Shown here: positions 22,854 to 54,342 of the stretch, piece after piece
How the letters are laid out: each line of letters opens with the position of its first letter
How positions within the stretch are numbered: the first letter of the stretch is position 1
DNA from: Rariglobus sp.
GTDB lineage: Bacteria; Verrucomicrobiota; Verrucomicrobiia; Opitutales; Opitutaceae
Assembly: GCA_029266495.1 (NCBI GenBank)
Contig: JAQSWS010000024.1
Coordinates: 1-54,557, forward strand
DNA length: 54,557 bases
Direction of reading: 5' to 3'
Program-made: the position numbers and the translations under genes
Notes under the pieces: model-generated
The model's input: the letters and a program-made list of their open reading frames with translations, nothing else
What the model was told of the DNA's origin: nothing
Database searches by the model: none

Positions 22854-23990
22854 TCAGAGTGTGACGACGGTGGTGTCGCGATGCGAGGCCAGGGCGGCAG
22901 CCCAGATTTCGTGATGGGCGACGGCCTCGTCGGGCGTGGCGCAGCCGAAGCGATCAACGAGCTGGCCGGCCCGTTCGGCGAGGTAGGCCGCCCACATCTG
23001 CATGAGGATATCAGGGAAACCGGGCTCAAAAATACCGCCGGTGATCGTCTTGAACGGCATGGCAAAACCGAGATCGGTGGCGGACCAGGCCTGCTCTTTT
23101 CCACGCGTGTAAGTGAGCAGGGTCTTGGGTTGCTTGGTGGAGAAACGCACGCCGCCATCGGTGCCGAGGATCTCGATTTCCCACGAGTTGGTGTCGGTGG
23201 GACTCATCCGTTTCGTCTCAAGCGTAAGCGGGACGCCGGGCTGGCCGGGGAGATCGACGGTGCAATGGAGGACGGCGTTGTCCCACGTGTCGCAGGGCGC
23301 GGTGCCGCCTTTGCCATCGGGACGTTCGGTGTAGATTTTTTGGAGCTGGGCGTAGAGGCGGGCGGGCTTCCAGCCCATGCGCAGCGGCACGTGGGCAACG
23401 TGGAGGCCGAGGTCGTTCATCACGCCAGCCTCGCCGCAGAATTTATTCTGGCGTTTCCAGTTGATCGGCTTGGTGGGGTCGAGGTCGCTGGAGTGGAGGA
23501 AGCTGTTGCGGATGGAGAGAATCTTGCCGAACGCGCCGGAGCGCGCGGCGGCGATGGCGCGTTGCACGCCGGGAAGAAAGGGAAACTCGGAGGAGACGCG
23601 CACGAAGCGGCCGAGTTGGACGCCTTCATCGCGGATGCGACGGGCGGCGGCGAGGTCGATGCCGAAGGGTTTTTCGGCGAGGAGGTCTTTGCCGGCGCGG
23701 AGAACGTCGAGATAGAGCGCCTCATGGAGGTGGTGCGGCACGGCGACGTAAACGACGTCGATATCGGTTCGCGCGAGGAGCACGCGGTGGTCGGTGTCGA
23801 AGTGTTGCACGGTCGGCACCTGGCGGAACCAGTCGAGGGCGGCGGTGTTGACGTCACAGACGGCGACGAGCTCGGGACGGACGGGGCAGTCGAGCAGCGA
23901 GAACCAGCGGCCGAAGGCGCTGGCGACTTCTCGACCCATGAGGCCGGCGCCGATGACGGCGACGCGGACGGCGGGAGTGGACGTGGACAT
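22854..23990 (-). CDS. Gfo/Idh/MocA-family oxidoreductase
   Basis: 378 residues. The Rossmann motif GAGLMG (G14, G16, G19) binds NAD(P), and the AEKPFG motif (E106, K107, P108) carries the conserved lysine of this family. The C-terminal alpha/beta domain is complete. Such enzymes oxidise or reduce hydroxyl groups of sugars, inositols or glycosides, in some cases as the first step of oxidative glycoside cleavage. It begins four bases after the aldolase stop, inside the DeoR operon. The substrate is not identifiable; a sugar or sugar acid released by the operon's mannosidase is likely. It starts at the ATG at 23988-23990 without a Shine-Dalgarno sequence. Confidence 0.9.
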   Translation of the reverse strand: MSTSTPAVRVAVIGAGLMGREVASAFGRWFSLLDCPVRPELVAVCDVNTAALDWFRQVPTVQHFDTDHRVLLARTDIDVVYVAVPHHLHEALYLDVLRAGKDLLAEKPFGIDLAAARRIRDEGVQLGRFVRVSSEFPFLPGVQRAIAAARSGAFGKILSIRNSFLHSSDLDPTKPINWKRQNKFCGEAGVMNDLGLHVAHVPLRMGWKPARLYAQLQKIYTERPDGKGGTAPCDTWDNAVLHCTVDLPGQPGVPLTLETKRMSPTDTNSWEIEILGTDGGVRFSTKQPKTLLTYTRGKEQAWSATDLGFAMPFKTITGGIFEPGFPDILMQMWAAYLAERAGQLVDRFGCATPDEAVAHHEIWAAALASHRDTTVVTL

Positions 23991-25685: not shown

Positions 25686-28358
25686 TCAGGAAAGCCCCGG
25701 TTGCGGGGGCATCGTGAACGTGTAGCGACCCGGCAGCAGCGTGAGTGCCGGGCGGTTGTCGGGCAGGACGGTGCCATGGACGCCCGCGTGTTGGTCCCAC
25801 GGCTGGCCGTCGATTTTTACCGTGTCGAGCGACACGCCGGGCGGGACGGCGGTGGCCTGGGTGTTGGGCGGCACCTCCACGATCCAGGTGAATGTCGCGC
25901 GCGTCCGTTTCCACTTGCTGGTGATGCGACCATAGGGCGATTCCAACGTGGCGGCGGCGTGGGTGAGTTTTTCGTGCGGCTGCGGGCGCAGCAGAATGCG
26001 GCGGAAACCGGGGGCCAGTTCGCTGATGCCGCCCACCGTCGCGTAGAGCCATTCACCAATGGCGCCGTAGGCATAGTGGTTGAACGAGTTCATGCCGACC
26101 TCGCCGAAACCCTTGTCGGGAGTCCAGCTGTTCCAGCGTTCCCACATGGTGGTCGCGCCGTTCTTGATCGGAAAAAACCACGACGGGTAGCCCTCGTTGA
26201 AAAGCAGGCGGTAGGCGAGATCGGTGCGGCCGAAGCGCGTCAACACGGGGCAGAGCAAGGGCGTTCCGACGAAGCCGGTGCAAAGGTGATTGTTGCGCCG
26301 TTTGAGCGTGCGTTCGAGGTGGGCGAGGGCCGCGGGGCGCTGTTTTTCCGGGAGCAGGTCGAAGCCGAGCGCGAGCAGGTAGGCCGTCTGGGTGTCGCCG
26401 GCGATGCGACCGTCCGGGGTGACGTAGTGGCGGTTAAACGCGGCGATCACGCGGGTGTGGAGCCGGGTGAAGCGCTTTGCGTCGGCATCGCGCTCGAGGA
26501 TGCGGGCGACCCTGGCCATGATGCCGGCGGTGTGAGCGAAATAGGCGGTTCCGATCAGGTCGCTGGGCGTGGCGGCCCAACCTGCCTGTGACGCATCGGG
26601 TGCCAGCCAGTCGCCGTAATTGGTGTCGGGACGGATCAACCGGGTGGAGGTTTTTTCCTGAAATGCGACGGATCGGGCCATCGCGGAATAGTTTTCCTCG
26701 AGGATGCGGATATCGCCGTATTTTCTGTAGATCGTCCACGGGCAGATGACGCCGGCATCACCCCAGGCCGCGGTGCCGCCGGCGTTGTCCGGCCAGAGTT
26801 TGAAAAAAACATCGGGCGCAATATCGGGATACGCGCCACTCGGATACTGGCCGTCGGCCAGATCACGCGTCCATTTGCGGAAGAAGGCCGAGACGTCGTA
26901 GTTGAAGGCGGCGGTCGGGATGAAGACCTGGGCATCCCCGGTCCAGCCGAGGCGTTCGTCGCGTTGAGGGCAGTCGGTGGGGACTTCGAGGAAGTTGCCG
27001 CGCTGGCCCCAGCGGATGTTGGACTGGAGCTGGTTCACGAGCGGGTCCGAGCAGGTGAAGGTGCCGGTGGGCGTCATCTCGGTGTGCCAGACAAGGCCGG
27101 TGACCGCGTCGAGGCGGGGCCTGGCTTTGAGGCCGGTGAGCTCGACGTAACGGAAGCCGTGAAAGGTGAAACGAGGCTCGTAGATTTCAACGCCTGCGCC
27201 ACGGCAAAGGTAGATGTCGGTGGCCTTCGCCCCGCGCAGGTTTGCAGTGTAGGGTGTGCCGTCGGCCTGGAGCATTTCGGCGTAGCGGAGGGTGATGCGG
27301 GTGCCACGCGGGGCGCGGATGCGCAGGCGGATGTTGCCGACCATGTTCTGGCCCAGATCGAAAACATGGCGTCCCTTTGCAGGCTGTGTCAGGACGACGG
27401 CTCTGAGTTCCTCGGTGGTGCGCACGCACCCGAAGGCTTTGGCGGCGAGGGGAAGCGGTGTGCAAACGAGTTCGCGGGCGGGTTTCCATCCACGGGCTGA
27501 AAAGGTGGGTGTGCACCAGGCGGTATTTGTCAGGCGGGCGTCGTAGGTTTCGCCATCATAGAGATCTGCGGCGACCAACGGGCCGGTCGAGCCACGCCAG
27601 GTGGAGTCGGTGCCGATCCAGCGGATCGAACCATCCTTCTCGATGATGCGAAGCGCGGCGAAAAGTGCGGACGTATCACCATATAGATCATGGTCGCGCT
27701 TCCAGCCAAGATAGCCTGCATACCAGCCATCTGCGAGAAACGCTCCGAGGGTGTTTTCCCCGGCATTGAGCTGTGCCGTGACGTCGTAGGTCAGATATTC
27801 CAGGCGATGCCGGTAGTCGGTCCAGCCGGGCGTCAGGTGATCCTTGCCGATACGTCCGCCATTGATGTGGGCTTCGAAAAGGCCGCGGGCGGTGATGTAG
27901 AGGCGGGCCTCACGGGGAGCGGCGGCGAGCGAGAAGTGTTTGCGCAGTTGGGTGGCCGGCCGGGCGGAGTCGGTTTTGGGCACCGGCAGATGAATCCATT
28001 TTGCTCCGGGCCAGATCGCTTTGCTGTCGAGGAAGCCTGTCTCGAACCAGGCGACTTCGCTCCATCCTGTGACCACACCTTCATGATCCCAGATACGCGC
28101 CCGCCAGTGATACCGGGTGTGCGGTTCAAGGGCGGGGCCGGAGTAAGGAATCAGCACGGAGGCATCGGTGTCGACCCGGAGGGAGTCCCAGACGATTTCA
28201 CCTGAGTGGGTGGAGACCTCGATTTGACAGGCGGTCTGGCCGGCACCGACGCGGGAGTCGGCGAGCTTCCATGAGAAACGGGGGGCTGTTTCGTCGAGGC
28301 CGAGCGGATTGACGAGATGTTCGCAGCGCAGATCGACGGGGCGGGGGTGGGGAGGCAT
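25686..28358 (-). CDS. GH78 alpha-L-rhamnosidase, cytoplasmic
   Basis: 890 residues without signal peptide. The domain order matches GH78: N-terminal fibronectin-like domain (about 8-115, PRFSWKL), N-domain beta sandwich with LYITARGLFEAHINGGRIG, the concanavalin-like domain ending VDVGG-like turns, then the (alpha/alpha)6 barrel with TDCPQRDERLGWTGDAQVF near 460-480, which carries conserved acidic residues of the active site. The C-terminal beta domain completes it. It would cut terminal rhamnose from imported pectic (rhamnogalacturonan) or glycoside fragments. It lies 90 bases before the DeoR gene and 153 bases after the regulator gene at 28512-30377, all in the same direction, so it may be cotranscribed with either. 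Confidence 0.92.
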   Translation of the reverse strand: MPPHPRPVDLRCEHLVNPLGLDETAPRFSWKLADSRVGAGQTACQIEVSTHSGEIVWDSLRVDTDASVLIPYSGPALEPHTRYHWRARIWDHEGVVTGWSEVAWFETGFLDSKAIWPGAKWIHLPVPKTDSARPATQLRKHFSLAAAPREARLYITARGLFEAHINGGRIGKDHLTPGWTDYRHRLEYLTYDVTAQLNAGENTLGAFLADGWYAGYLGWKRDHDLYGDTSALFAALRIIEKDGSIRWIGTDSTWRGSTGPLVAADLYDGETYDARLTNTAWCTPTFSARGWKPARELVCTPLPLAAKAFGCVRTTEELRAVVLTQPAKGRHVFDLGQNMVGNIRLRIRAPRGTRITLRYAEMLQADGTPYTANLRGAKATDIYLCRGAGVEIYEPRFTFHGFRYVELTGLKARPRLDAVTGLVWHTEMTPTGTFTCSDPLVNQLQSNIRWGQRGNFLEVPTDCPQRDERLGWTGDAQVFIPTAAFNYDVSAFFRKWTRDLADGQYPSGAYPDIAPDVFFKLWPDNAGGTAAWGDAGVICPWTIYRKYGDIRILEENYSAMARSVAFQEKTSTRLIRPDTNYGDWLAPDASQAGWAATPSDLIGTAYFAHTAGIMARVARILERDADAKRFTRLHTRVIAAFNRHYVTPDGRIAGDTQTAYLLALGFDLLPEKQRPAALAHLERTLKRRNNHLCTGFVGTPLLCPVLTRFGRTDLAYRLLFNEGYPSWFFPIKNGATTMWERWNSWTPDKGFGEVGMNSFNHYAYGAIGEWLYATVGGISELAPGFRRILLRPQPHEKLTHAAATLESPYGRITSKWKRTRATFTWIVEVPPNTQATAVPPGVSLDTVKIDGQPWDQHAGVHGTVLPDNRPALTLLPGRYTFTMPPQPGLS

Positions 28359-28511: not shown

Positions 28512-30377
28512 TCAGGGTTCCAATACTGTCACCGCGAGCACGCCGAGGGTGGTGGAGCCGGTCGGATCAACGGAGATCTCCAGCGTATCCACGGTCTTGC
28601 CGGGGAAGGGATTGATCCACTCGTAAGTGTAGAGGAAGACGTGGCGCGGCAGGCGCTCGTGTTCGTCGCTCTCCAGGATGGGGGCCATGCGCGCGTTGGG
28701 GAAATCCTCGTGAGGGAAGTCGGGCCACCAATCCTGGATGTTCGGGGCCGGGGAGGCAGCATCCTTTGGGGTTGGAGTGTAGCCGGGAGCAGGCTGGCCC
28801 AGCGCAACCAGTGGAACTTCTCCCAGGGTGGTTTTGCGATGGAGGAAACGATAGCGGGCGAAGGAGTGAAGGAACTTGGCGTAGCCGCAGCCGTGCAGGA
28901 TGTAGACGGCCTTCACCTTGGATTTGATGGGGATGGAGAGCTGATTGGGCAGCGGACGGGCGTTGCCGGTGGTATTGACCGCCGAGTGGAAGACGATGGC
29001 GCCGCAGTCGGTGCGTCGGGGACCTCCCAGGATGTCGAACGGGACGCCGTGGATTTCGTGCCGTCCGGGCGGGAGTTCCTTGAGGGGAAGATCCCCGAGC
29101 CAGCCGCGCCGGAAGTTCAGCGGGCGGTTGACGAGCGGGGCAAGATCGACGGGGGCGAAGCGCGGTTTTTCGGAGAGCGAGGCGCGGGCGGCGAGCGGGT
29201 AGGCCGTGCGCAGGCACAATTCAAGGGATTGCGACGGCGGGCGGGCCGGCTGGGGGGCGGAGGCCGGTTTTTCGGGGGCGACCTTCCGGCCCGCGAGCGA
29301 GGCCGGGGCACGGGTCGAGCAGCGCAGGACGAACTGGGCCTGGACGCGGATGCAGCAGGGTGGGGGAAGGATGCCCAGGGCTTTTTTCTTGCGGGCGGCC
29401 CGAAGTGCCAGGTGGAAGGCGGTCTCCTGCATGAGCGGCATGTCCTGGCCGGCGCTGGTAACCGGGGGAATCGCGGTGGCCGGCGGTTTCGAACTGCCCA
29501 CGAATACAATCGAGAGATCGCGCGGGACTTGCCTCCCCTTTTGCGCCAGTTGCTCCTGGAGAAGCTGCAGATTGTATTCCAGCCCTGAATACAAGATCAG
29601 CGCGGTGGCGGAGGCCCATTTCCCGGTGAGGAGACCGACGACCTCGGCGGCCTCCTCGCGCAGGCGGGCGTTGTTGTCCTGGAAATGGACGCGTTCGATC
29701 GAGCGGGGCAGGTGGTGCTGGCGGCAAAGGTCGCCCCAGGCCAGGAGGGTTTCCTCCGAGGTGGGATTGATGGCCGGGGCGGTGACAAAGCCCAGTTCGC
29801 GATGCCCGAGGTCGACCATGTGACGGACGGCGAGATCGAGATCGTGGCGGCTGTCGGGGACCACCGAATACACCTGGGGCGAGGGCTGGCCGAGGCTGAC
29901 CACAGGGATGCCGTGGCGGATGAGTTTCTCGGCCAGGGGCGTCCAGAGACTGACGGGAGCGGCATAGGGCGGGTCGAGGACCACCGCCTCGGTGTCGCGA
30001 TTGTCGAGACGTTCGAGCAGCAGCAGGGCCTCGTCGATGGACTGCCAGGTATGGACGAGCAGCTTGATGTCCATTTCCTTGGCCACCCGCTTGTAGCTTT
30101 GGAGGTGGATGGAGCGCTGAGCCACGACGAGATGGCAGGTGAGGCGGGAGATCGGGTGGGCACCGGCCTCCGCCACGAAAAGCTTGTAGCCCACCCGTTC
30201 CACCCGTCCCTCGGAGATCAACCGGCTCATCGCACGGTTGAGCGAGTAGTGTTGCAGGCCGAGCTGCACGGCGAGCGAGCGCTCCGACGGAAGGCGCGTT
30301 CCAGGTTTGTGGGCGGTTTTGTCCAGCCATGCGCGCAGGAGGGCGTCGGCTTCGTTTACAAGGCGGCCAAAAGACAT
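28512..30377 (-). CDS. GntR/LacI-type regulator fused to a C-terminal carbohydrate-binding-like domain
   Basis: 621 residues from the ATG at 30375-30377. Three parts are visible. Residues about 5-68 are a GntR-type winged helix (PSERSLAVQLGLQHYSLNRAM). Residues about 78-350 are a LacI-type periplasmic-binding-like sensor (VVLDPPYAAP, SVVPDSRHDLDLAVRHM, ELGFVTAP, ALILYSGLEYNLQLL). A Pro/Ala/Lys-rich linker (about 355-400) leads to about 210 further residues with NRPLNFRRGWLGDL, GVPFDILGG, AVYILHGCGYAK and WINPFPGKTVDTLEISVD. This last part resembles galactose-binding-like sandwiches that usually occur in secreted glycosidases. Ordinary members of this regulator class end near residue 370. Palindromes TGTTTAAACA and TGTTTGAACA lie just upstream. 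There is no membrane segment, so it acts in the cytoplasm. Confidence 0.85.
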   Translation of the reverse strand: MSFGRLVNEADALLRAWLDKTAHKPGTRLPSERSLAVQLGLQHYSLNRAMSRLISEGRVERVGYKLFVAEAGAHPISRLTCHLVVAQRSIHLQSYKRVAKEMDIKLLVHTWQSIDEALLLLERLDNRDTEAVVLDPPYAAPVSLWTPLAEKLIRHGIPVVSLGQPSPQVYSVVPDSRHDLDLAVRHMVDLGHRELGFVTAPAINPTSEETLLAWGDLCRQHHLPRSIERVHFQDNNARLREEAAEVVGLLTGKWASATALILYSGLEYNLQLLQEQLAQKGRQVPRDLSIVFVGSSKPPATAIPPVTSAGQDMPLMQETAFHLALRAARKKKALGILPPPCCIRVQAQFVLRCSTRAPASLAGRKVAPEKPASAPQPARPPSQSLELCLRTAYPLAARASLSEKPRFAPVDLAPLVNRPLNFRRGWLGDLPLKELPPGRHEIHGVPFDILGGPRRTDCGAIVFHSAVNTTGNARPLPNQLSIPIKSKVKAVYILHGCGYAKFLHSFARYRFLHRKTTLGEVPLVALGQPAPGYTPTPKDAASPAPNIQDWWPDFPHEDFPNARMAPILESDEHERLPRHVFLYTYEWINPFPGKTVDTLEISVDPTGSTTLGVLAVTVLEP

Positions 30378-30384
30378 AGGGGTA

Positions 30385-30396
30385 ATGTTTAAACAT
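30385..30396. promoter_or_regulatory. Perfect 12-base palindrome ATGTTTAAACAT, probable operator of the adjacent regulator
   Basis: The site ends eight bases before the start of the GntR/LacI-type regulator gene, so binding would block its translation or transcription start region. The core TGTTnnAACA recurs at 30455, 37421, 37697, 46569, 51311 and 51359. Confidence 0.7.
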
Positions 30397-30454: not shown

Positions 30455-30464
30455 TGTTTGAACA
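30455..30464. promoter_or_regulatory. TGTTTGAACA, second operator candidate in the divergent promoter region
   Basis: It lies about 70 bases from the palindrome at 30385-30396, 78 bases before the regulator's start and 77 bases before the start of the divergent GH94 gene. This suits control of both genes. Confidence 0.65.
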
Positions 30465-30540: not shown

Positions 30541-32940
30541 ATGAGCTACGGTCGCTTCGATCCCCCCGCCCACGAATATGTTGTCACGCGTCCGGACACA
30601 CCGCGCGCATGGTCCAACTACCTTGGCTCGCGCCGTTATGGTGGCATCGTCACCAACAATGCCGGTGGCTACTCTTTCACGCGTTCGCCCGCCGAGGGGC
30701 GCCTGCTCCGGCACCGCTACAATTCCGTGCCCGCCGAGCAGCCGGGACGCGTTTTCTATCTGCGCGACCGCGACGACGGCGACTATTGGTCGGCGGCCTG
30801 GCAGCCGGTCGGAAAACCGCTCGATCGCTACCACGCCGAGACTCGTTTTGGGCCCGGTTACGCCACGATCACCAGCGACTACGCAGGCATCCGCGCCGAG
30901 TCGCTCTACTTCATCCCGCTGGATCAGGAATTTGAATACTGGCGCCTGCGCGTCACCAACACCGGCGGGCGGACGCGCCGGCTTTCGGTGTTCGCCTGCG
31001 CCGAGTTCACGACCGAGTGGAATCTGGTCAACGACCTCCTCAATCTTCAATACACCCAATACATTGGCGAAGCCTCGTTCCGGGACGGTTTCATCCGCGC
31101 TTCCTCCTGTTCCCGCCTGCCGGAGGATCCGGGCAACTTCGCCAACCGCGACCAGTCCCGCTGGTGGTGGATGACGCTCGCCGGCGCGCCGGTCTCTGGC
31201 CACGACTGCGACCGCGACGCCTTCCTCGGAGCCTATCGCGGTTATGACCGGCCCCTCGTCGTCGAACGAGGCGCGTGCGGCGGATCCGCCGGATTCTCCG
31301 ACAACACCTGCGGCGTGTTGCAGAGCGACATCGAACTGGCCCCGGGCGAAACGCGCGAGGTGCTCGTTCTCCTCGGCATTGGCAAAAGCGAACGCGAAGG
31401 CCGGGCCGCCTTGCGCCGCCACGGCAACGCCGCGGCGTGCGAGCGGGCGTTCGCCTCGTTGAAGGCCCGTTGGCACGGGCTGCTCGAAACGTTTCAGGCC
31501 GAAACGCCTGACGACGATTTCAATCACATGGTCAACACCTGGGGCGCCTACAATGCGCTGGTGACCTTCGAATGGTCGCGTTCCTGCTCGCTGGTCTATA
31601 CGGGAGACCAGCGTGACGGCTTCGGGTTTCGCGACACCGTGCAGGACATGCTCGGCGTCTCCTCGATGCTGCCTGAGGTCGTGCGCGAACGGCTCGTCCT
31701 GATGCTCTCGGCGCAGGACGCCACCGGGGGCGCGCAGCCGGAGGTGCGGCCCTGGTCGCACGCGCCCGGCAGCATGAAACCCACGCCGGCGGGCCATTAC
31801 CGGAGCGACGACTGTCTTTGGTTTTTCAATACCATTCCCGCTTATGTCGCCGAGACGGGCGACGTCGCGTTTTACGACGAGGTCGTGCCTTTCGCGGACA
31901 AGGGCAAGGCGACCGTGCTCGGCCACCTGCGTCGCGCCCTGGAGTTCAACCTGGAACGCACTGGCCGCAATGGCCTGCCCTGCGGCCTGCTCGCCGACTG
32001 GAACGACTGTCTCAAGCTCGGCTACAAGGGCGAGTCGGTCTTTGTCGCCTTCCAGGTGCGCCTCGGCCTCGCGGCCTATGCGGAGATCGCCGGCGCGAAA
32101 AAGCTCTCCCGCGAACGCGCATGGGCCGAGGAGGAGTTGAAGAAAATCGATCGCGCCATCGCCCGCACGTGTTGGGACGGCAAGTGGTTCATCTGGGCCA
32201 TCGCGGAGGACGGCACCGTTTACGGAACGTCGAAAGCGAGTGAAGGACGCATCTATTTGAACACCCAGTGCTGGGCGATTCTGTCGGGTTTCGCCGACGC
32301 GAAGCAGTCGAAGAGTTCGCTGGCCGCGGTGAAGAAGATGCTCGCGTCCGAGTATGGCGTGGCGATGTGCGCGCCGCCCTTTGCGAAGACCCCCGTGAAC
32401 GTGATGCGGGCGGTGCTGTTCAATCCAGGCAACAAGGAAAACGGCGGCATTTTTTCCCACACGCAGAGCTGGGCCGTGCTCGCCGAAATCATGGCCGGTG
32501 ACGGCGACCGGGCCTACGCCTACTACCGCTCGTTCATGCCCTCGGCGCAGAACGACCGCATCGAGACGCGCGAGATCGAGCCCTTTGCGCATTGCCAGAG
32601 CACGCATTCGCAGTTCTCCAAGAAATTCGGCACCTCGCGCGTGCCGTGGCTTTCGGGCACGGCGTCGTGGGCACATTACACGGCAACGCAACACATCCTC
32701 GGCTTGCGACCCGAGATCGGCGGCCTGCGCATCGATCCGTGCATCCCGCGCGAGTGGCCGGGCTTCAAGGCCCGCCGCCGCTTCCGGGACTGCACGGTTC
32801 ACGTCGAGGTGCGCAATCCATCCGGGCTGAACCGCGGCGTGTCGCACCTGCTGGTCGATGGCCTGCGCGTCGAAGGCAACCTTCTGCCGCTCGCGTCACT
32901 CAAGCCGGTCACCCGCGTGGTCGCCGTCATCGAAGCGTGA
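30541..32940 (+). CDS. GH94 phosphorylase (cellobiose/chitobiose-type), cytoplasmic
   Basis: 799 residues without signal peptide. The N-terminal region shows the GH94 pattern SNYLGSRRYGGIVTNNAGGY and FYLRDRDDGDYWSAAWQPVG. The (alpha/alpha)6 barrel has YTGDQRDGFGFRDTVQDMLG and the catalytic-acid motif RSDDCLWF (D423/D424). Later GH94 patterns are WNDCLKLG, LNTQCWAILSGFA and WLSGTASWAHYT. The enzyme splits a beta-linked disaccharide with inorganic phosphate, giving sugar 1-phosphate and saving ATP. Which disaccharide cannot be told. It is divergent from the regulator gene across a region with two TGTTnnAACA sites and is followed after 25 bases by a deacetylase gene in the same direction. Confidence 0.92.
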   Translation: MSYGRFDPPAHEYVVTRPDTPRAWSNYLGSRRYGGIVTNNAGGYSFTRSPAEGRLLRHRYNSVPAEQPGRVFYLRDRDDGDYWSAAWQPVGKPLDRYHAETRFGPGYATITSDYAGIRAESLYFIPLDQEFEYWRLRVTNTGGRTRRLSVFACAEFTTEWNLVNDLLNLQYTQYIGEASFRDGFIRASSCSRLPEDPGNFANRDQSRWWWMTLAGAPVSGHDCDRDAFLGAYRGYDRPLVVERGACGGSAGFSDNTCGVLQSDIELAPGETREVLVLLGIGKSEREGRAALRRHGNAAACERAFASLKARWHGLLETFQAETPDDDFNHMVNTWGAYNALVTFEWSRSCSLVYTGDQRDGFGFRDTVQDMLGVSSMLPEVVRERLVLMLSAQDATGGAQPEVRPWSHAPGSMKPTPAGHYRSDDCLWFFNTIPAYVAETGDVAFYDEVVPFADKGKATVLGHLRRALEFNLERTGRNGLPCGLLADWNDCLKLGYKGESVFVAFQVRLGLAAYAEIAGAKKLSRERAWAEEELKKIDRAIARTCWDGKWFIWAIAEDGTVYGTSKASEGRIYLNTQCWAILSGFADAKQSKSSLAAVKKMLASEYGVAMCAPPFAKTPVNVMRAVLFNPGNKENGGIFSHTQSWAVLAEIMAGDGDRAYAYYRSFMPSAQNDRIETREIEPFAHCQSTHSQFSKKFGTSRVPWLSGTASWAHYTATQHILGLRPEIGGLRIDPCIPREWPGFKARRRFRDCTVHVEVRNPSGLNRGVSHLLVDGLRVEGNLLPLASLKPVTRVVAVIEA

Positions 32941-42499: not shown

Positions 42500-43426
42500 T
42501 TAACTTTGTTCGAACTGGAACACCCTCGGGGTTTTTCCGGTGCGACGCTTGAAGACGCGCACAAAGTGGCTGGGGTCGGCGAAGCCGCAGTAGTGGGCGA
42601 TTTCGCCAACCGAGAACTGACGGGCCTGGAGCATGGACTTGGCGCGTTCGATGCGGACCCGCTCAATGTAGGCGGTGAGATTGCCGCCGGTGTGGCGTTT
42701 GAACTCGCCGCTCAGATAATTCGGGTGGCAGCCCGCGTGCGCGGCGATGTCGGTCACGCGGCAAGACTGGCCGAAGCGTCGCGCGACGAACTTGACCGTG
42801 GTGCGCACGAGCGGGGGAAGGTTGTGATAAGGGAGCCAGTGCACGTTTTGCGCGAGCGGCGGGTAACGCTCGACCGGAATGGCCAAGGCTTCGCACCACA
42901 GGCGGACGGATTCGACCACGGTGCGGAGGCGGTCTTGGTGCGCGGCGATCTCGGTCTCGCGGATGCGGGGCGCCGTTTTCCATGCGGCCACGTGGTTTGC
43001 CGGATCGATGCCGCGTCGCTTGCAGTAGCGGTGCACCCGGCGGAGCGATTCGGCCTCCCGTTCGACGATGGCGACGGAGCCGTAATAAAACACACCGAGC
43101 ACGGCGCCGCTGATGACGAGCGGCTCAACCAAGTCGAAGAGCCCGAGGTGGCAGAGGCCGCCAAACCCTTCGCGCCGGCGAATGGCAATGCGGTTGGCCG
43201 CACCTTTATTGATAGAACAGTCGAGCGGTCCGTGGAGGGCCGACTTGGCATGCATACAGGCGGCGCAGTTGTGGATGTCGTAAGATACCGGCAGCAGTAA
43301 TTGAGGGTAATCCAACGTCACGCCGGTGAAGTCCTCGAAACTCGCCCTGAGCGGTGCGGAGTTATTGAGCAGGTCCAGGGTGCGCTGGAACAGCGAGGGG
43401 GCGGCGGCGGGCAGGGCGGGGGGCAC
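42500..43426 (-). CDS. AraC-family regulator with PocR-type sensor domain
   Basis: 308 residues. The N-terminal part (about 8-150) has the cysteine pattern of PocR-like domains (YDIHNCAACMHAKS and LDCSINKG, then FGGLCHLGLFDLVEPLVISG), which bind small molecules, possibly with a metal. The C-terminal AraC domain (about 205-305) has two helix-turn-helix units: RVTDIAAHAGCHPNYLSGEF and VGEIAHYCGFADPSHFVRVFK. It follows the genes at 43499-46455 in the same direction with a 72-base gap, so it may control them. The effector is unknown. The start at 43426 gives a sensible protein; no Shine-Dalgarno sequence is present. Confidence 0.9.
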   Translation of the reverse strand: MPPALPAAAPSLFQRTLDLLNNSAPLRASFEDFTGVTLDYPQLLLPVSYDIHNCAACMHAKSALHGPLDCSINKGAANRIAIRRREGFGGLCHLGLFDLVEPLVISGAVLGVFYYGSVAIVEREAESLRRVHRYCKRRGIDPANHVAAWKTAPRIRETEIAAHQDRLRTVVESVRLWCEALAIPVERYPPLAQNVHWLPYHNLPPLVRTTVKFVARRFGQSCRVTDIAAHAGCHPNYLSGEFKRHTGGNLTAYIERVRIERAKSMLQARQFSVGEIAHYCGFADPSHFVRVFKRRTGKTPRVFQFEQS

Positions 43427-43498: not shown

Positions 43499-44530
43499 CT
43501 ACACGGTCGCCGGCGCGGCGGGGCAGTAGATGCCGTCCGGTTTGCGCGGGCCCATGCCTTGGGGAACGACGTTGTCCATGCGAAGCACGCGAAAGTGCTC
43601 GAAGCCGAGGCCGACCAAGGCGTCTTCCGCGAGGAGGCCGTTCCACGTGCGACCGCGCGGATCGTTGTAGAGACCTTCGCCGTAGAGGGCGTGGCCGCCG
43701 CACACGTCGACGTTGACCGCGCCGTAACGCTGAAGTGCGCGGGCAACGATTTTGGCGGCGGGTGAAAGCCTGAGTTTTTCGAGGTCGAGGGCCGGATCGA
43801 GTTGCACGATCGCGCCCTCTGGCAGGCCGTCCGGCCAGCCTCCGTCGGTCCAGCAGGCGGGTGGATGAACGAAGCGTTGAAGGGCGGAACTCTGGGTGGC
43901 GAAGGAGAGTTTATGGTCGATGCAACCGGAGGTGATCTCGTCGTGCATGATCGTGCCGGCGAGGATGGGCACGCCGGCGGCGCGCGCGGGGCCGTAGGGG
44001 TGGATGCTCTCGCCGTTGCTCACGGCAAACTCCGCGCGATCGAATACGCCGGAGCCTTTGGCCGGATACTTCATGCCGGAGTTGCATTCCCATTCGCCGT
44101 CGGGGCGCACGCGCGCGGCCCACATGTCCCAGATCCAGCCGTTTTCCCAGTCGACCAGAGCGATGTGGCTGTCGCCTTCAGGATCCGGGCGGGCGTATTC
44201 AGGGAGGGGAATGAGTCCGGAGGCCGCGTCGGCGGCGAAGTCACGGCCATGGCCCACGGGGTGGCCCGGGAAGAGATACGGGGTGCTGCGGACCATGATC
44301 CCGCCGACGTGCGGAGCCATGCGACGATGCACGCGGCGGCGCGGCGTGCCGGCGTTCACCTCATAAATCGGAATGGTCCACTGGTGGAGGTTGATCCAGA
44401 ATCCGCGGTCGTCGTGCGTCGCGAGAAAATCGAGCATGGCGCGCGAGTCCGGATCGATGGCGGGATCGGGGGCGACCGGGCGGTTCCAGAAGCTGGTGTC
44501 GTGGAAAAAACGTTTCATGGGGGATTGCAT
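43499..44530 (-). CDS. Conserved protein of unknown function, enzyme-like
   Basis: 343 residues from the ATG at 44528-44530 (339 if the second ATG at 44518 is used). It has no signal peptide. Early residues read FFHDTSFWNRPVAPDPAIDPDS, similar in pattern to a widespread uncharacterised family with an SxWNxPI start. Candidate active-site or metal residues are His and Asp in VGGIM, HPVGHGRDF, DPEGDSHIALVDWENGW, GTIMHDEI and GCIDHKLSF, spread as in a beta-sandwich hydrolase. The gene starts nine bases after the esterase stop, so the two are very likely cotranscribed. A role on the same acetylated or acidic glycan is a fair guess, but no family name can be given. Confidence 0.65.
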   Translation of the reverse strand: MQSPMKRFFHDTSFWNRPVAPDPAIDPDSRAMLDFLATHDDRGFWINLHQWTIPIYEVNAGTPRRRVHRRMAPHVGGIMVRSTPYLFPGHPVGHGRDFAADAASGLIPLPEYARPDPEGDSHIALVDWENGWIWDMWAARVRPDGEWECNSGMKYPAKGSGVFDRAEFAVSNGESIHPYGPARAAGVPILAGTIMHDEITSGCIDHKLSFATQSSALQRFVHPPACWTDGGWPDGLPEGAIVQLDPALDLEKLRLSPAAKIVARALQRYGAVNVDVCGGHALYGEGLYNDPRGRTWNGLLAEDALVGLGFEHFRVLRMDNVVPQGMGPRKPDGIYCPAAPATV

Positions 44531-44538
44531 TGCCGGAG

Positions 44539-46455
44539 TTACCAGCGATCGGTCCGGAACGGGCTGGCGGGCAATCCGTCGAGGTTGGCGAGATTGCAGC
44601 CTTCGGGATTGTCGGCCCAGGCGTAGCGCACCGCCGTGGGTTGAGAAATGGCGGGGAGGGAAACCACCACGTCGTTGCCGTCGATGCGGGCGTGTGCGGG
44701 ATGAAACTCGCGGTCCACGCCGCAGATGAAAAACAGGCGCGGAGCTTGTCCGTCGGTGGTGGCCAGCCCGGCGCCGGTGTCCTTGAACCGGCAACGCGCG
44801 ATTCCGCCGGAGAAAACAACGCTTTCGAAAAGCGGGCCGTTGGGCGTGAGGTTGCGGGCGTAAGTGCGGGCGAGTGCGCTTTGCGCGAGGCGCTCGCCGA
44901 CGGGGATTTTGTTTTTCGGGTGAATGTCCCCGGCCTCGCCGAGGTCGATGGTGACGGCGATGCCCGTGTGCGGAAGCGAGAGGGTGTCCGCCTGGGCTTC
45001 GCGCAGGCGCGCCCAGTTGCTGTCGGGCTGGTGTTCGCGGGCGGCCTGGAACCCGGGCAACTGCACGGTGTGAAACGCGAGGTCGGCGCGTCCCCATTGT
45101 GCGCGCCAATCCAGAACCAGGTCGCGCATGAACCGTGTATAGAGCGGCGCCTGGGAGGTGTTGCCCTCGCCCTGATACCAGATCACGCCGCGCAGGGCGT
45201 AGGGCACGAGCGGCTGGAGCATGTTGTCGAAGAGGATGTGCGGGGAATTGCGTTCACCGTGTCCCATCAAGTGGGTTTCGGTGACGAGTCCGAGATTGTG
45301 CTCGCACTGGTAGCGCCAGGCTCCGGCCAGGGGGCACGAGGAGCCGGCCGCATCCGCCGGGGCGATGCGCAGGTCGTTGTCCGCGCCGATCATTCCGCCG
45401 TCATAGATAAATGAATACACGCGCACGGCGATGTGGAGCGAGCGTCCGGTGACCGCCGAGGCCGGGACGGTGTAGCGGCGGGGAACGTTCCAGTATTGGT
45501 CTTCGCGGTCTTTGCCGGTGCGGCCGACCTCCACGCCGTTGACGTAGGTGATGTCCTGCTTGTCGATGCCGCCGAAATGCAGGTGCAAGTCGCGGCCGGC
45601 CCACGCGGCGGGGATTTCCACGGTGCGCCGGAACCAGTAGACGCCCGAGTGCCGGTGTCCCGCGGATTGCCAGGTGCCGGGCACGGGCATCACGGGCCAG
45701 CCGGAGTCGTTGAAGTCCGGCTGGTGCCAGCCGCGGGCCACTGCGGTGTTGCCGGGATCCTTCGGCGCGCCGTTGACGCGGCCATCGGGGCCGGGGGAGC
45801 TCATCTGGTCCCAGTGTTCCGATGTCCAGACCTGGCTTTCGTAGCGTTCCAGCCACGGGGCGGCCTCGGGGTTGAGGGCAAGCGCGGAGCGGCTGAGCCA
45901 GCTCTGGATGATGCTGCCTCCCCAAGAGGAGGAGATGATGCCAATGGGCACGCCGAGTTCGCGGTGGAGGCGGCGGGCAAAGCTGAAGGCGGCGGCCGAG
46001 AAGCTGCCGACGGTCCCGGGCGTGGACGCCCGCCAGTTGCCTTCGACCGTGCGTTGCGGGCCGAGGTGGGCGCGGTTCGCGACATTGAAAAACCGGATGG
46101 CGGGGAAGTCGGCGGAGGCGATGTCGGAGTCTGTGAGCGGGCGGCAGCCGGCGAGCTTCATCTCCATGTTGGACTGGCCGGAGGCGAGCCAGACTTCGCC
46201 GACGAGCAGGTCACGGACCTCTACGCGTTCATCGCTTCCTTCGATGGAGACGGCGAGCGTGTGCGGACCGCCGGCCGGCAAAGCCGGAAGACGCACGAGG
46301 AAGTCGCCTTGAGTGTTGGCGATCGTCACGGCGGTGTTGTCCGCAAGGGTCACGCGAACGCGGGCACCGGCACTGGCCCGGCCCCAGACGGGAAGCGTCT
46401 GATCGCGCTGGAGAACGGCATGGTCTTGGAAGAGGGAGGCGAGTTGAAGGCTCAT
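44539..46455 (-). CDS. Sialate O-acetylesterase-family carbohydrate esterase without signal peptide
   Basis: 638 residues. The serine motif ASGQSNMEMK (S95) and the later GVIWYQGEGNTS and DLGEAGDIHPKNK blocks, with the catalytic aspartate-histidine pair in the last, define the SGNH-type sialate O-acetylesterase family. An inserted sandwich domain (about 240-330, DLHLHFGGIDKQDITYVNGVEVG) is as in the longer members. The N-terminus MSLQLASLFQDHAVLQRDQ lacks a signal peptide, unlike its relative at 47661-49697. In soil or gut bacteria these enzymes often act on acetylated plant xylan, pectin or rhamnose residues rather than sialic acid. A TGTTTGAACA site lies 114 bases before the start. It is followed by the unknown gene after eight bases. 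Confidence 0.88.
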   Translation of the reverse strand: MSLQLASLFQDHAVLQRDQTLPVWGRASAGARVRVTLADNTAVTIANTQGDFLVRLPALPAGGPHTLAVSIEGSDERVEVRDLLVGEVWLASGQSNMEMKLAGCRPLTDSDIASADFPAIRFFNVANRAHLGPQRTVEGNWRASTPGTVGSFSAAAFSFARRLHRELGVPIGIISSSWGGSIIQSWLSRSALALNPEAAPWLERYESQVWTSEHWDQMSSPGPDGRVNGAPKDPGNTAVARGWHQPDFNDSGWPVMPVPGTWQSAGHRHSGVYWFRRTVEIPAAWAGRDLHLHFGGIDKQDITYVNGVEVGRTGKDREDQYWNVPRRYTVPASAVTGRSLHIAVRVYSFIYDGGMIGADNDLRIAPADAAGSSCPLAGAWRYQCEHNLGLVTETHLMGHGERNSPHILFDNMLQPLVPYALRGVIWYQGEGNTSQAPLYTRFMRDLVLDWRAQWGRADLAFHTVQLPGFQAAREHQPDSNWARLREAQADTLSLPHTGIAVTIDLGEAGDIHPKNKIPVGERLAQSALARTYARNLTPNGPLFESVVFSGGIARCRFKDTGAGLATTDGQAPRLFFICGVDREFHPAHARIDGNDVVVSLPAISQPTAVRYAWADNPEGCNLANLDGLPASPFRTDRW

Positions 46456-46568: not shown

Positions 46569-46578
46569 TGTTTGAACA
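46569..46578. promoter_or_regulatory. TGTTTGAACA, candidate operator upstream of the esterase gene
   Basis: It is identical to the site at 30455-30464, lies 114 bases before the esterase start at 46455, and fits the TGTTnnAACA set. Confidence 0.5.
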
Positions 46579-49816: not shown

Positions 49817-51127
49817 TTAGAGAAAGCGGATGTTCTCGGCGTTGCGGGTATGCAGGTCGAGTTCGTCGGCGGAGGAGACCTTGTGTTCGTTCAGATAAAA
49901 ATCCTCGAAAACGATGTCGCGCGCGGGCTTTTTTCCGGAGTAGCCGCTGATGAGCGAGATGGAGCAACCGGGGTTGAAGACGGAGTGGACGATGCGGATG
50001 TTCTTCAGCCGGATGTTGCGGATGAGGCCGCGCTCGGGGTCTTTGTTGTAGCGGGAGCGAACGACACGGAAATCCACGAGCTTGTCCCAGTAATGTTCGA
50101 CGCGGATATTTTCCCAGCGGACGTTTTCGACGATGGCACGATCACCATTGTGAATGGAGAAAACGGCGCCTTCCCCGTGGGCGTTGAGCACATCGATGTC
50201 CTCGAAGGCGATGTTCGAGATGCGGTCGGTGCTCAGCTCATAGCCGATCTCCATGGCATTGCCCGGCTGGCCATTGAGGAAGATGCAGCGGCGGACGACG
50301 ACATTGTCGACGTCGCCCTCCCAGATGCTGGTTTTATCGAAGGTGCCGGCTTTGACGGCGATGTTGTCGTCATCGTTGCGCAGGCAGCAGTTCTCGATGA
50401 GCACGTCGCGTGAGGCGCAGACGTCGATGCCGTCGGAGGACATGCAGGAGCCGATCTGCTTGAGGCCGTCCACATGCACGTCACGGCAGCAGGCGAAGAC
50501 GAGCATCCATGACGTGGGTTCGATCATGATGATGTCGCTCACGCGGACGCGGGTGCAGCGCTCGAAGATCACGGAACGGATGCGATCGCCCTTGGCGTAG
50601 TCATGCCAGCGGCCGTCGAGAATGCCCTGGCCGCGGATGGAGACATTGTCGGCGCCGGTGGCGCGGACGAACCCGCGGACGACCGCGCCGGCTTCGATGT
50701 AGAGCGTCTGGCCGCTCGTGAGCTCGATTTCACCCGCCTCATGGATCTTTCCGGCGGCGAAGTAGCGGACGTCGGGATCCCGGGGCGACGGCTTGGCGAT
50801 CTCGGGGGCGTTGGCGTAGATGAAGAACGGCTTGAGACCCGGGACGTCGACGCACAGGCACTGCGGCCCGTCGATTTGAAAGCGGATGGCACGACCGTCG
50901 ACGGACGGGGTGATGCCGCGGGAGAGCGGTTTTACCTGGGTGCCTTCGGCGGCGGTCGCGGCGACGATCGCGATGTGAACGGGGCTGCCGCATTCGAAGA
51001 CGGCAAAATCGGCCTTCTCCGCGAGAAGCGCATCAACGGGCTCTCCGTTGACCCAGAGCTGAAAGTGGGCGGAGCGAGGCTGCGCGACCGGATGGACGCA
51101 AGAGGTGACCGGCGAAAGGATGTTCAT
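49817..51127 (-). CDS. GH28-type right-handed beta-helix glycoside hydrolase
   Basis: 436 residues from the ATG at 51125-51127. A small N-terminal sandwich domain (about 1-110) is followed by the parallel beta-helix of pectinase-like enzymes. Candidate catalytic aspartates are D232 and D235 in SSDGIDV and D252-D254 in RNDDDNIAVKAG, the pair seen in GH28 and relatives. The polygalacturonase GHG and RxK motifs are not clear, so the substrate may not be polygalacturonate. No signal peptide is seen (MNILSPVTSCVHPV), so it may act inside the cell on imported fragments. The gene is divergent from the Asp-box protein at 51688, and the shared region holds two TGTTnnAACA sites. Confidence 0.82.
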   Translation of the reverse strand: MNILSPVTSCVHPVAQPRSAHFQLWVNGEPVDALLAEKADFAVFECGSPVHIAIVAATAAEGTQVKPLSRGITPSVDGRAIRFQIDGPQCLCVDVPGLKPFFIYANAPEIAKPSPRDPDVRYFAAGKIHEAGEIELTSGQTLYIEAGAVVRGFVRATGADNVSIRGQGILDGRWHDYAKGDRIRSVIFERCTRVRVSDIIMIEPTSWMLVFACCRDVHVDGLKQIGSCMSSDGIDVCASRDVLIENCCLRNDDDNIAVKAGTFDKTSIWEGDVDNVVVRRCIFLNGQPGNAMEIGYELSTDRISNIAFEDIDVLNAHGEGAVFSIHNGDRAIVENVRWENIRVEHYWDKLVDFRVVRSRYNKDPERGLIRNIRLKNIRIVHSVFNPGCSISLISGYSGKKPARDIVFEDFYLNEHKVSSADELDLHTRNAENIRFL

Positions 51128-51310
51128 TAAGAAGAAAAGGGATGCGCCCTTCCGGTGGTGCGCGTTCGTCACGGACCGAGACGGGAGGCGGGGCCGGCGG
51201 AGTCGTGTCGGAGCCGAAAGTGGGGCTTGCGGGTGTGGGCTTCATCCAAAGCCCGGACGCCTCGGCACGGGCAAATGAAGAACCCGGGGGCGGCGAGAAA
51301 TTCAGTCGAA

Positions 51311-51358: not shown

Positions 51359-51368
51359 TGTTTAAACA
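51359..51368. promoter_or_regulatory. TGTTTAAACA, candidate operator in front of the Asp-box gene
   Basis: It has the same ten bases as the core of the palindrome next to the GntR/LacI-type regulator gene (30386-30395) and lies 319 bases before the start at 51688. Confidence 0.6.
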
Positions 51369-51687: not shown

Positions 51688-54342
51688 ATGCACCCCGTCA
51701 TCATGACTTCCCGTTTGTTAAGCAAACCCCGCCGGTGGCTGTTCGCCGGACTTTGCGCGGCGACCGCCACGGTTGCCGACGCGGCTCCGCTGGCGACCGC
51801 TGAAAACGCCACGCCCGCATGGACCCCGACCGGCTGGAGCGGCGGCGGTTTCTATTATTCCGCGGCCTTTCACCCGACGCGCGACGGCGTGTTGTTTCTT
51901 GGCATGGACGTGGCCGGCGTGGCGAAGTCCACCGATCACGGAAAAACCTTCCGCATGGTGAACAAGGGACTCGTCGACTACGCGATGTATTCGCTGGCGG
52001 TGGACGTAAAGAATCCCGATATCGTTTATGCCGGCACCGAGGGCGGCCTGCACAAGAGCACCGACGGCGGCGAGACCTGGAAGTTCATTCCCGGAACCGC
52101 CAAAAAGGAACTGCGCATCACCTCGGAGCGCGGCACGAGCGTGCGCTCGGTCGCGTCGGATCCGACGGACAGCAACATCGTTTATGCGGCGAGCCCCGGC
52201 GGTAAAATCTACAAGAGCACCGACGGCGCCATGACGTGGCGCGTCGTTTATCAAAAAGGAGCCGAGATCGATACGTTCAACGGCGTGCGCGTTCAGTTCG
52301 GCAAGGCCAACGGCGCGTATTTCGGCGGCATCTGGTCGCCGTTGCAGTTCCCGAAGGATGCAACCGGCGCGACCGGCATCGGCTTCACGCTTAAGGGCGA
52401 CGGCTCGGCCCCCGAGCGAGCCTATCTGAATTTGAAGACGGCCACGAGTGTCGCTTATCGCAGCCGCAACATCCTCGATATTTTCGCGGACACCCAGGTG
52501 CACGATGTCGTTTATACTGCGGCGGATTTTGAGCTCGATCCGGACTTCGTCAAAAAGTCTCCCGAACTGGCTGCGGCCGCTCCCAAGACACCGGACTGGG
52601 CTGCGATCACGCGCATGGATTTCTCACGCGTCTCGGCTCCTGACACGGCTTCGGTTTTAAAAATCGGACGCATCTTTTTTGTAGCCCTCGGAGCCGACGG
52701 CAAGGAAGCCAAGCTCACGGTGCGCGATTTCAGCGCAGACAAAGCCGTGCAGTCCTACGGCAACGTGCGCTTGGGCGAAGCGGCGGCCGCAGGCGGAGCG
52801 GTGAGCAGCGTGGTGGTCTGCGCCTCCAATCCGTCCAAGATCCTCGCGGCCACCTCCGAAACCGGCCTGTTGTTGAGCGATGACAAGGGCGAAACCTGGC
52901 GTCCGCTGCCCACGCCGAAGAAGGCGATGCACGCGGCCTTCGATCCCAGCAATGCCTCTGTGATCTACGGCGCGTTTGCCACCGACGGCATTCATAAGTC
53001 CATCGACGGTGGTGCGACTTGGACAAAAATTTCCGCGGGTCTTCCTCCGAAACTGTCGGCCCGTGAAATCGTGGTCCATCCGACCAACTCGAACGAGGTT
53101 TACTTCATCGGCTCAGACGGCTGGAACGGCGAATTCGGCTACTCGATCGATGCCGGAGCGACCTGGACGATCTCCCGCTCGGTCAAGGTCGACCTGGCGA
53201 TCGATCCGACCCTGCCGGGCGACGGTTCCTCGGCCGGCTTGAGCGCTCCGACCAATCTCACGATCAATCCGCGCAACCCGAAGCAACTCTTCATCAGTGC
53301 CAACTGGCGCCCGGCCTTCAGCTCCGACGGCGGCCGCACGTGGGAAGAGCGAGTCAAGGGCGCCGACATCACGGTGCACACCGACATCCGTTTCAGCGGC
53401 GACCGCACCTATGTGAGCGCGATGGACGAAGGCACGCTCATGAGCGAAGATCAGGGCAAGACTTGGAAACAACTCTGGCCGCTCAAATACGATGGCGAAT
53501 TCTCCGGTCACAACTGGCGCCTGGCCGTCAACAAGGTGAACGGCGTCGACCGCATCATCGCGACCGTCAGCCCTTGGACCGGCAAGAACAAGGTCATCAT
53601 CGCCATCAGCGAAGACGGCGGAAAGACCTACAAGCAAACCACCGCCGGCCTGCCCACCTACGAGATCAAGGCCAACACGATGTGGGGTCGCGGTTATCCG
53701 CGCGCTCTCGCGGTTGATCCGACCAATCCGAAGATCGTCTACCTCGGCATCGACGGCGATCCCACGCCCGGCAATCCCGCGGAAACCGGCGGCGGCGTTT
53801 TCAAATCCGAGGACGGCGGCTACACGTGGAAGCAACTGCCCAACCAACCCGGCAGCCGTCGCATGTATTACGGCCTGGCGATCGACCCGACCAATCCGAA
53901 GCGCATTATCTGGGGCGGCTTCGGCGCCAACGGCGGCGTCTACATCAGCGAGGACGGCGGCGATTCGTGGAACTATGCCCTCAAGCAGGACCAATATCTC
54001 TTCAACGTCCATGCGACCGCCGACGGCACGCTCTACGCCGGTGGCAACAACCTCTGGACCAGCACCGACCACGGAAAAACCTGGAAGCAGATCACGAAAC
54101 TCACGGGCCGCTCGGTGGTCGGCATTGAAGTCGATCCGCGTAACCCGAAGACGATCTGGATTTCCGCGGTGACGTGGGACGGCAGCGCCAACGGAGACGT
54201 TTACAAGAGCACCGACGGCGGCGCGACCTGGACGGATTTCACCGGCGACATCCAGCACCGCAAGCCGCAGATCCTGCGCTTCAATCCGAAGACCAACGAG
54301 CTGTGGTCCGGCCAGACGATGCTGCACAAGATCAAACAATAA
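51688..54342 (+). CDS. Secreted GH74-like Asp-box beta-propeller protein
   Basis: 884 residues. A signal peptide (about 1-32, ending DAAP) is followed by two-part beta-propeller sequence with many Asp-box motifs: KSTDHGKTF, KSTDGGETW, KSTDGAMTW, LSDDKGETW, KSIDGGATW, SSDGGRTW, SEDQGKTW, SEDGGKTY, KSEDGGYTW, SEDGGDSW, TSTDHGKTW and KSTDGGATW. Such proteins include GH74 xyloglucanases and sortilin-type propellers. A stretch of about 120 residues (about 190-320) without Asp boxes interrupts the first propeller and resembles an inserted jelly-roll. GH74 catalytic aspartates cannot be fixed by eye. The gene is followed by a good terminator. Xyloglucan or a related beta-glucan is a plausible substrate, not a demonstrated one. 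Confidence 0.85.
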   Translation: MHPVIMTSRLLSKPRRWLFAGLCAATATVADAAPLATAENATPAWTPTGWSGGGFYYSAAFHPTRDGVLFLGMDVAGVAKSTDHGKTFRMVNKGLVDYAMYSLAVDVKNPDIVYAGTEGGLHKSTDGGETWKFIPGTAKKELRITSERGTSVRSVASDPTDSNIVYAASPGGKIYKSTDGAMTWRVVYQKGAEIDTFNGVRVQFGKANGAYFGGIWSPLQFPKDATGATGIGFTLKGDGSAPERAYLNLKTATSVAYRSRNILDIFADTQVHDVVYTAADFELDPDFVKKSPELAAAAPKTPDWAAITRMDFSRVSAPDTASVLKIGRIFFVALGADGKEAKLTVRDFSADKAVQSYGNVRLGEAAAAGGAVSSVVVCASNPSKILAATSETGLLLSDDKGETWRPLPTPKKAMHAAFDPSNASVIYGAFATDGIHKSIDGGATWTKISAGLPPKLSAREIVVHPTNSNEVYFIGSDGWNGEFGYSIDAGATWTISRSVKVDLAIDPTLPGDGSSAGLSAPTNLTINPRNPKQLFISANWRPAFSSDGGRTWEERVKGADITVHTDIRFSGDRTYVSAMDEGTLMSEDQGKTWKQLWPLKYDGEFSGHNWRLAVNKVNGVDRIIATVSPWTGKNKVIIAISEDGGKTYKQTTAGLPTYEIKANTMWGRGYPRALAVDPTNPKIVYLGIDGDPTPGNPAETGGGVFKSEDGGYTWKQLPNQPGSRRMYYGLAIDPTNPKRIIWGGFGANGGVYISEDGGDSWNYALKQDQYLFNVHATADGTLYAGGNNLWTSTDHGKTWKQITKLTGRSVVGIEVDPRNPKTIWISAVTWDGSANGDVYKSTDGGATWTDFTGDIQHRKPQILRFNPKTNELWSGQTMLHKIKQ

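Follow-up and report, generated by a model that had tools for sequence, protein, structure and literature searches.

What does a transcription factor of a well-known sugar-repressor type do with a conserved third domain that has no name? The question is raised by a gene on a 54,557-nucleotide contig of Rariglobus sp. (the whole of this stretch is called the window below, and positions are numbered along it). An earlier note described the gene product as a GntR helix-turn-helix and a LacI-type sensor, continued in the same frame by an extension of a kind found in secreted sugar-active proteins. The gene, for which that note named no strand, is indeed one continuous fusion: the minus strand of 28512–30377 contains an uninterrupted frame of 621 residues, and a stop is present in the plus strand over the same bases. 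The sequence strings quoted for the extension are present in the translation. An alternative in-frame ATG at 30542 would give a protein of 676 residues but overlaps the divergent gene, and the ATG at 30377 is the start that agrees with relatives of the regulator. The gene and its parts are as follows:

28512–30377, minus strand: three-part regulator, a single frame of 621 amino acids plus stop codon
30192–30356, minus strand: GntR-type winged helix-turn-helix, residues 8–62 (Pfam PF00392, E 2.3e-10)
29286–30152, minus strand: LacI-type sensor, residues ~76–364 (PF13377 at residues 184–340; structural match with Z 25.9 over residues 76–364)
29229–29297, minus strand: disordered linker, residues 361–383 (pLDDT below 50)
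28515–29189, minus strand: C-terminal beta-sandwich domain, residues 397–621 (without a Pfam family; from the model and conservation)

The front part of the protein is what it had been taken for. In addition to the GntR domain, Pfam finds Peripla_BP_3 (the PF13377 match, E 9.3e-14) and has no match beyond residue 340. The NCBIfam matches are all far below cut-off, are to GntR-type and LacI-type regulators, and at E ≤ 1 do not extend beyond residue 335; a PDB sequence search with the front part returns LacI/GntR matches. The sensor superimposes on LacI-family structures with Z scores of up to 25.9, and on the sensor of Bacillus subtilis AraR (3tb6) with a Z score of 24.5 (274 residues aligned, rmsd 3.3). 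In the AraR arrangement described in PMC4494728, a GalR/LacI-type sensor comes after a GntR-type winged helix, and the window regulator has both domains in common with it. The claim of a new sensor architecture thus holds for the third domain and not for the first two: AraR as described there consists of two domains, whereas the window regulator adds a conserved third one of about 225 residues. The full-length predicted model (14 sequences, mean pLDDT 79.8, pTM 0.47) consists of folded parts separated by the disordered residues 361–383 and, because its pTM is low, leaves the relative placement of the domains open.

The extension could be an artefact of assembly or of two genes fused into one frame, an explanation that we practically dismiss because intact frames are found in the paralogs of this genome, in a second member of the genus (G010, with four copies) and in named genomes of Verrucomicrobiota. 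In the window's own genome, four further genes match the C-terminal domain over most of its length; three of them have the winged helix (43–45% identity), and the fourth, the start of which lies off its contig, shows 34% identity. One scan of named genomes gave 14 loci with the C-terminal domain, which by their titles come from Verrucomicrobiota or from groups that belong to it. Among 56 related genomes, four carry the C-terminal domain, and 13 places, the window's own counted in, match residues 1–352 at E ≤ 1e-15. Eleven of the 13 are open frames of 622–793 amino acids; one (G008, a frame of 476 amino acids) reaches the end of its contig just within the C-terminal domain, and one (G017, 400 amino acids, 30% identity) is too short to contain it. 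Among these places, no close relative showed a stop near residue 370, which the earlier note named as the sign of an artefact. With 11 of 13 places in long frames, the front part and the extension therefore travel together. The distribution of the regulator is patchy even within its own genus (3 of 13 genomes).

Family searches with five copies of the C-terminal domain matched no Pfam family at E ≤ 10, and PDB sequence profile searches with the domain gave weak, scattered matches only. Its predicted model (15 sequences) is mostly strand and forms a beta sandwich, with a pLDDT of 84.9 and a pTM of 0.87, the five models differing in mean pLDDT from 58.0 to 84.9. Foldseek alone found no match to this model at E ≤ 0.001. 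The closest solved fold, in the VIA-align comparison, is AziU3/U2 of Streptomyces sahachiroi, a protein of the azinomycin pathway, which takes the top row (chain A, Z 14.5, 170 of 202 residues aligned, rmsd 3.2, 16% identity) and the second (Z 14.3, 171 residues aligned). Rows 3–9 are carbohydrate-binding modules: CBM8 (Z 9.1, 128 residues aligned, rmsd 3.2), CBM29 (five rows, Z 8.3–8.7) and CBM86 (Z 8.2). They are followed by PAPP-A (Z 8.1), a porphyran-binding module (Z 8.0) and an ephrin receptor (Z 8.0), and such matches around Z 8 may reflect just a common strand arrangement in the predicted fold. The carbohydrate-binding-like domain of the earlier note is thus a predicted beta sandwich, but the modules that it was expected to resemble come second to AziU3/U2.

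CBM8, CBM29, CBM86 and CBM15 have a beta-sandwich fold like that predicted for the C-terminal domain (Z 7.6–9.1), but the latter has no Pfam match and is joined to a DNA-binding domain. Carbohydrate-binding modules sit on carbohydrate-active enzymes, as do distant copies of the domain (on GH2 and GH20 proteins); the copies in the regulators do not. The AziU3/U2 match points elsewhere, since this protein is described in PMC12559475 as functionally an aziridine synthase. The domain could then have kept or gained catalysis, or it could bind a ligand other than a sugar. Such a role, which we consider improbable, would account for the Z score of 14.5 being well above the 9.1 of the next row; against it, the two proteins share 16% identity, and AziU3/U2 is absent from the PDB sequence profile searches at E ≤ 10. 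All 23 of 23 regulators have Cys497 (28887–28889, in an HGCGY motif), which speaks for such a role; against it, this cysteine is matched in just 3 of 16 distant copies and 3 of 7 beta-helix/AraC copies of the domain (the groups of copies are those of the tree below).

Outside the regulators, the domain is found on enzyme-like proteins. It was matched at E ≤ 0.01 in at least 73 of 387 genomes sampled across the phylum, a lower bound, as are all domain counts from this search, in which up to seven candidates were scored per genome; a family of this spread has no Pfam match. The non-regulator copies among the matches listed lie mostly in open frames between several hundred and 1900 residues long. 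Fifteen of the proteins with distant copies were run against Pfam: four contain GH2 domains and one more a GH2 match below cut-off, two are GH20, three beta-helix proteins, one has DUF4350, one an AraC-type helix-turn-helix, and three are without a family. Two further proteins were compared with NCBIfam alone and match beta-galactosidase models far below cut-off. Many of the distant-copy proteins begin with an apparent signal peptide, as judged by eye, and the domain lies near the end in many of them and near the front in others. The kinship with secreted sugar-active proteins that had been suspected from the sequence is thus supported by the beta sandwich and by the distant relatives on GH2, GH20 and beta-helix proteins. 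Elsewhere in the phylum, six proteins of about 600 residues (L139, L129, L140, L131, L132 and L141) match part of the domain; the match lies close to their N-terminus, behind what looks like a signal peptide.

The AraC-type protein is a second kind of regulator with the same C-terminal domain (L065:2–1777, on contig C229 of genome G265; HTH_18 at residues 222–299, C-terminal domain at 369–580). This fusion was found in one genome only, and its frame starts at the contig edge.

A tree of the domain was built from 46 of 61 hits, 15 with too little coverage of the domain having been dropped; near-duplicates (L012, L013, L015, L017, L026) and a fragment (L019) are also left out, and the root is a drawing aid only. 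In this tree, the 23 GntR-type regulators, including L005, which is assumed to be of this type as its start lies off the contig, form a single clade (support 99/98). Closest to them, and apart from a more distant group of 16 copies, are the beta-helix proteins (a label checked in Pfam for three of six rows: L064, L066 and L068) and the AraC fusion, which stands on a long branch beside a beta-helix copy (support 94/44). An independent origin of the AraC fusion is unsupported: the AU test does not reject a tree that holds all regulators together, in which the two fusions would go back to one event (p 0.299).

Several residues are retained across this divergence. His495, Tyr509, Trp550, Trp587, Asn589 and Pro590 are each kept in 15–16 of the 16 more distant copies and in 21–23 of the 23 regulators, and Pro592 is also common to 15–16 of the 16. 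The seven beta-helix/AraC copies keep the retained residues in six or seven cases, except for Trp587, which is found in two of the seven.

Among the regulators, no other part varies as little as the extension. To the three own-genome paralogs with the winged helix, the window protein is 41–51% identical in the winged helix, 31–36% in the sensor and 58–60% in the extension. The same pattern is found in an alignment of the window protein with 13 of the named-genome loci (the starts of L030, L031 and L032 in it were set by the alignment and not by start codons), where mean pairwise identity is 49.0% in the extension, 46.1% in the helix-turn-helix, 32.2% in the sensor and 26.0% in the linker. For 90 of 91 pairs, identity is higher in the extension than in the sensor, and for 65 of 91 it is higher than in the helix-turn-helix. 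Pfam finds the sensor domain (PF13377) in all 14 of these regulators and GntR in 12, the start of L033 being cut by a contig edge. The suggestion that the extension reads a particular polymer therefore fits poorly, and one ligand, partner or structural job common to all paralogs is likelier. Since it is the sensor that varies, the LacI-type sensor probably reads the specific sugar, and the extension probably serves something that the paralogs have in common.

What the regulator controls is suggested by its neighbours:

25686–28358, minus strand: GH78 alpha-L-rhamnosidase gene, downstream of the regulator on the same strand (PF17389, E 5.8e-127)
30541–32940, plus strand: GH94-type gene, divergent from the regulator (PF17167, E 4.6e-126)
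44539–46455, minus strand: SASA-type esterase gene
49817–51172, minus strand: GH28 gene
51688–54342, plus strand: BNR/sortilin-like gene

The window contains two SASA-type esterases in total and also holds Gfo/Idh, DeoC/LacD-type and polysaccharide-deacetylase-like genes. The divergent pair of regulator and GH94 gene recurs in L151 (the ortholog in G010) and in L020, and the GH94 gene is a likely target of the regulator. Given the GH28, GH78 and esterase genes, the substrate of the regulon is probably pectin or rhamnogalacturonan. Around other members, 20 neighbours, hand-picked for Pfam from the calls of a rough codon-position script (those of L027, L031 and L032, among others, were left out), include GH38, SASA, GH28, GH31, GH92, GH94, GH78-like, BNR/sortilin-like and MFS genes, as well as a histidine kinase (L030), a DUF5107/TPR protein (L148) and a protein without a family (L153).

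The region between the divergent genes contains two copies of a palindrome, TGTTTRAACA, and two more places are found elsewhere in the window:

30386–30395: operator candidate TGTTTAAACA within ATGTTTAAACAT, directly before the regulator ATG
30455–30464: another operator candidate, TGTTTGAACA, within the promoter region that the divergent genes share
46569–46578: third TGTTTRAACA place, 114 nt upstream of the SASA-type esterase gene 44539–46455
51359–51368: fourth TGTTTRAACA place, between the GH28 gene and the BNR/sortilin-like gene

These four places correspond to six strand matches, against 0.06 expected from shuffles, and make up four of the 15 places in the genome, of which the window is 1.1% by sequence. 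Both TGTTTAAACA and TGTTTGAACA recur before L151. In 17 regulator promoters outside the discovery set, the exact motif is found in two and a version within one mismatch in five (shuffle means 0.014 and 0.30, respectively; 0 of 500 shuffles reach five). The rough gene caller places all four window palindromes inside frames, the two before the regulator because it begins that gene at the most upstream start (30542), and those at 46569 and 51359 because of short plus-strand frames of 114 and 106 amino acids; in our judgement, the four are promoter sites. The motif fails as a genome-wide mark of the regulon, since 8 of the 11 places outside the window fall inside called frames (by the same rough calling). 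One of these 11 (L162, contig C99 of genome G000, 23186–23195) is found 60 nt upstream of an MFS transporter gene, which may belong to the regulon.

The candidate operators bear a partial resemblance to those of AraR. The site ATTTGTTTAAACAAAT of L024/L025 matches 12 of the 16 positions of the AraR consensus given in PMC4218819, the four differences lying in the centre. The ATTTGT...ACAAAT arms of that consensus are matched in L024/L025, and the corresponding window sequences are ATGTTTAAACAT and TGTTTGAACA. Speaking against an operator reading along AraR lines, 12 of 20 regulator promoters, including those of both tested own-genome paralogs, lack TGTTTRAACA within one mismatch, and eight have it; in this comparison, the promoters of L030, L031 and L032 may be misplaced, their starts having been chosen by alignment, and the first gene of L148 (an own-genome paralog with its promoter cut at 60 nt) and L005/L150 (off contig) are left out.

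The uniformity of the C-terminal domain could also mean that it binds no ligand and is an assembly module that joins dimers, so that two operators would be bridged by a DNA loop. In LacI, such joining of dimers is the task of the C-terminal helix. We regard this explanation as quite possible, if on balance doubtful. Paired candidate sites, with a spacing of 69 bp in the window, 87 bp in L151 and 63 bp in L020 (one mismatch in each L020 site), fit it; according to PMC4218819, AraR binds cooperatively to pairs of boxes, and a small loop is formed. However, the three spacings are unequal and give no support to a constant operator spacing, and two sites within one mismatch are found in only 3 of 20 promoters. 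Furthermore, His495, Tyr509, Trp550 and Asn589 are kept in common with the distant copies, which purely structural reuse of the domain need not entail.

Because of the domain's kin and these retained residues, we prefer a shared glycan-type ligand to assembly, with sugar binding by the C-terminal domain as a hypothesis. The regulator would then repress a plant-glycan regulon in the manner of AraR, with a second input added by the third domain, a reading that we hold with slightly less than even confidence. A dimer would bind the TGTTTRAACA palindromes and repress the regulator's own gene, the divergent GH94 gene and a regulon for a plant glycan, probably pectin or rhamnogalacturonan. It would be released from DNA when the variable LacI-type sensor takes up a sugar specific to the substrate. 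The C-terminal beta sandwich would bind another ligand, of glycan type and the same for all paralogs, and thereby tune DNA binding or assembly. Three findings count against such a second input: the best fold match is an enzyme complex and not a binding module, a structural role would explain equally well why the domain is so conserved among paralogs, and Trp587 is kept in just two of the seven beta-helix/AraC copies, the nearest kin. With operator candidates and likely targets named, the idea is directly testable.

Taken more widely, the two kinds of fusion would represent a glycan-sensing domain, shared with secreted glycan-acting proteins, that was built into GntR/LacI and AraC regulators, where, in the cytoplasm, it would integrate a substrate-specific sugar with a family-wide glycan cue. 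We advance this generalization tentatively and think it may well not hold. If the domain does sense a glycan, part of a secreted degradation machinery would have become an internal sensor for that same machinery. A literature search by title and abstract found no account of such a fusion; it covered subscription journals sparsely, so one may have been published.

Two further features of the neighbourhood were observed. The window encodes an AraC-type regulator (42500–43426, minus strand) that includes a PocR sensory domain. A stretch MKRFF(N/H)D(T/S)SFWN, noticed by eye, occurs near several of the three-part regulators: in the window at 43499–45109 (minus strand), in L152:12697–13713 and in L022:13672–14718.
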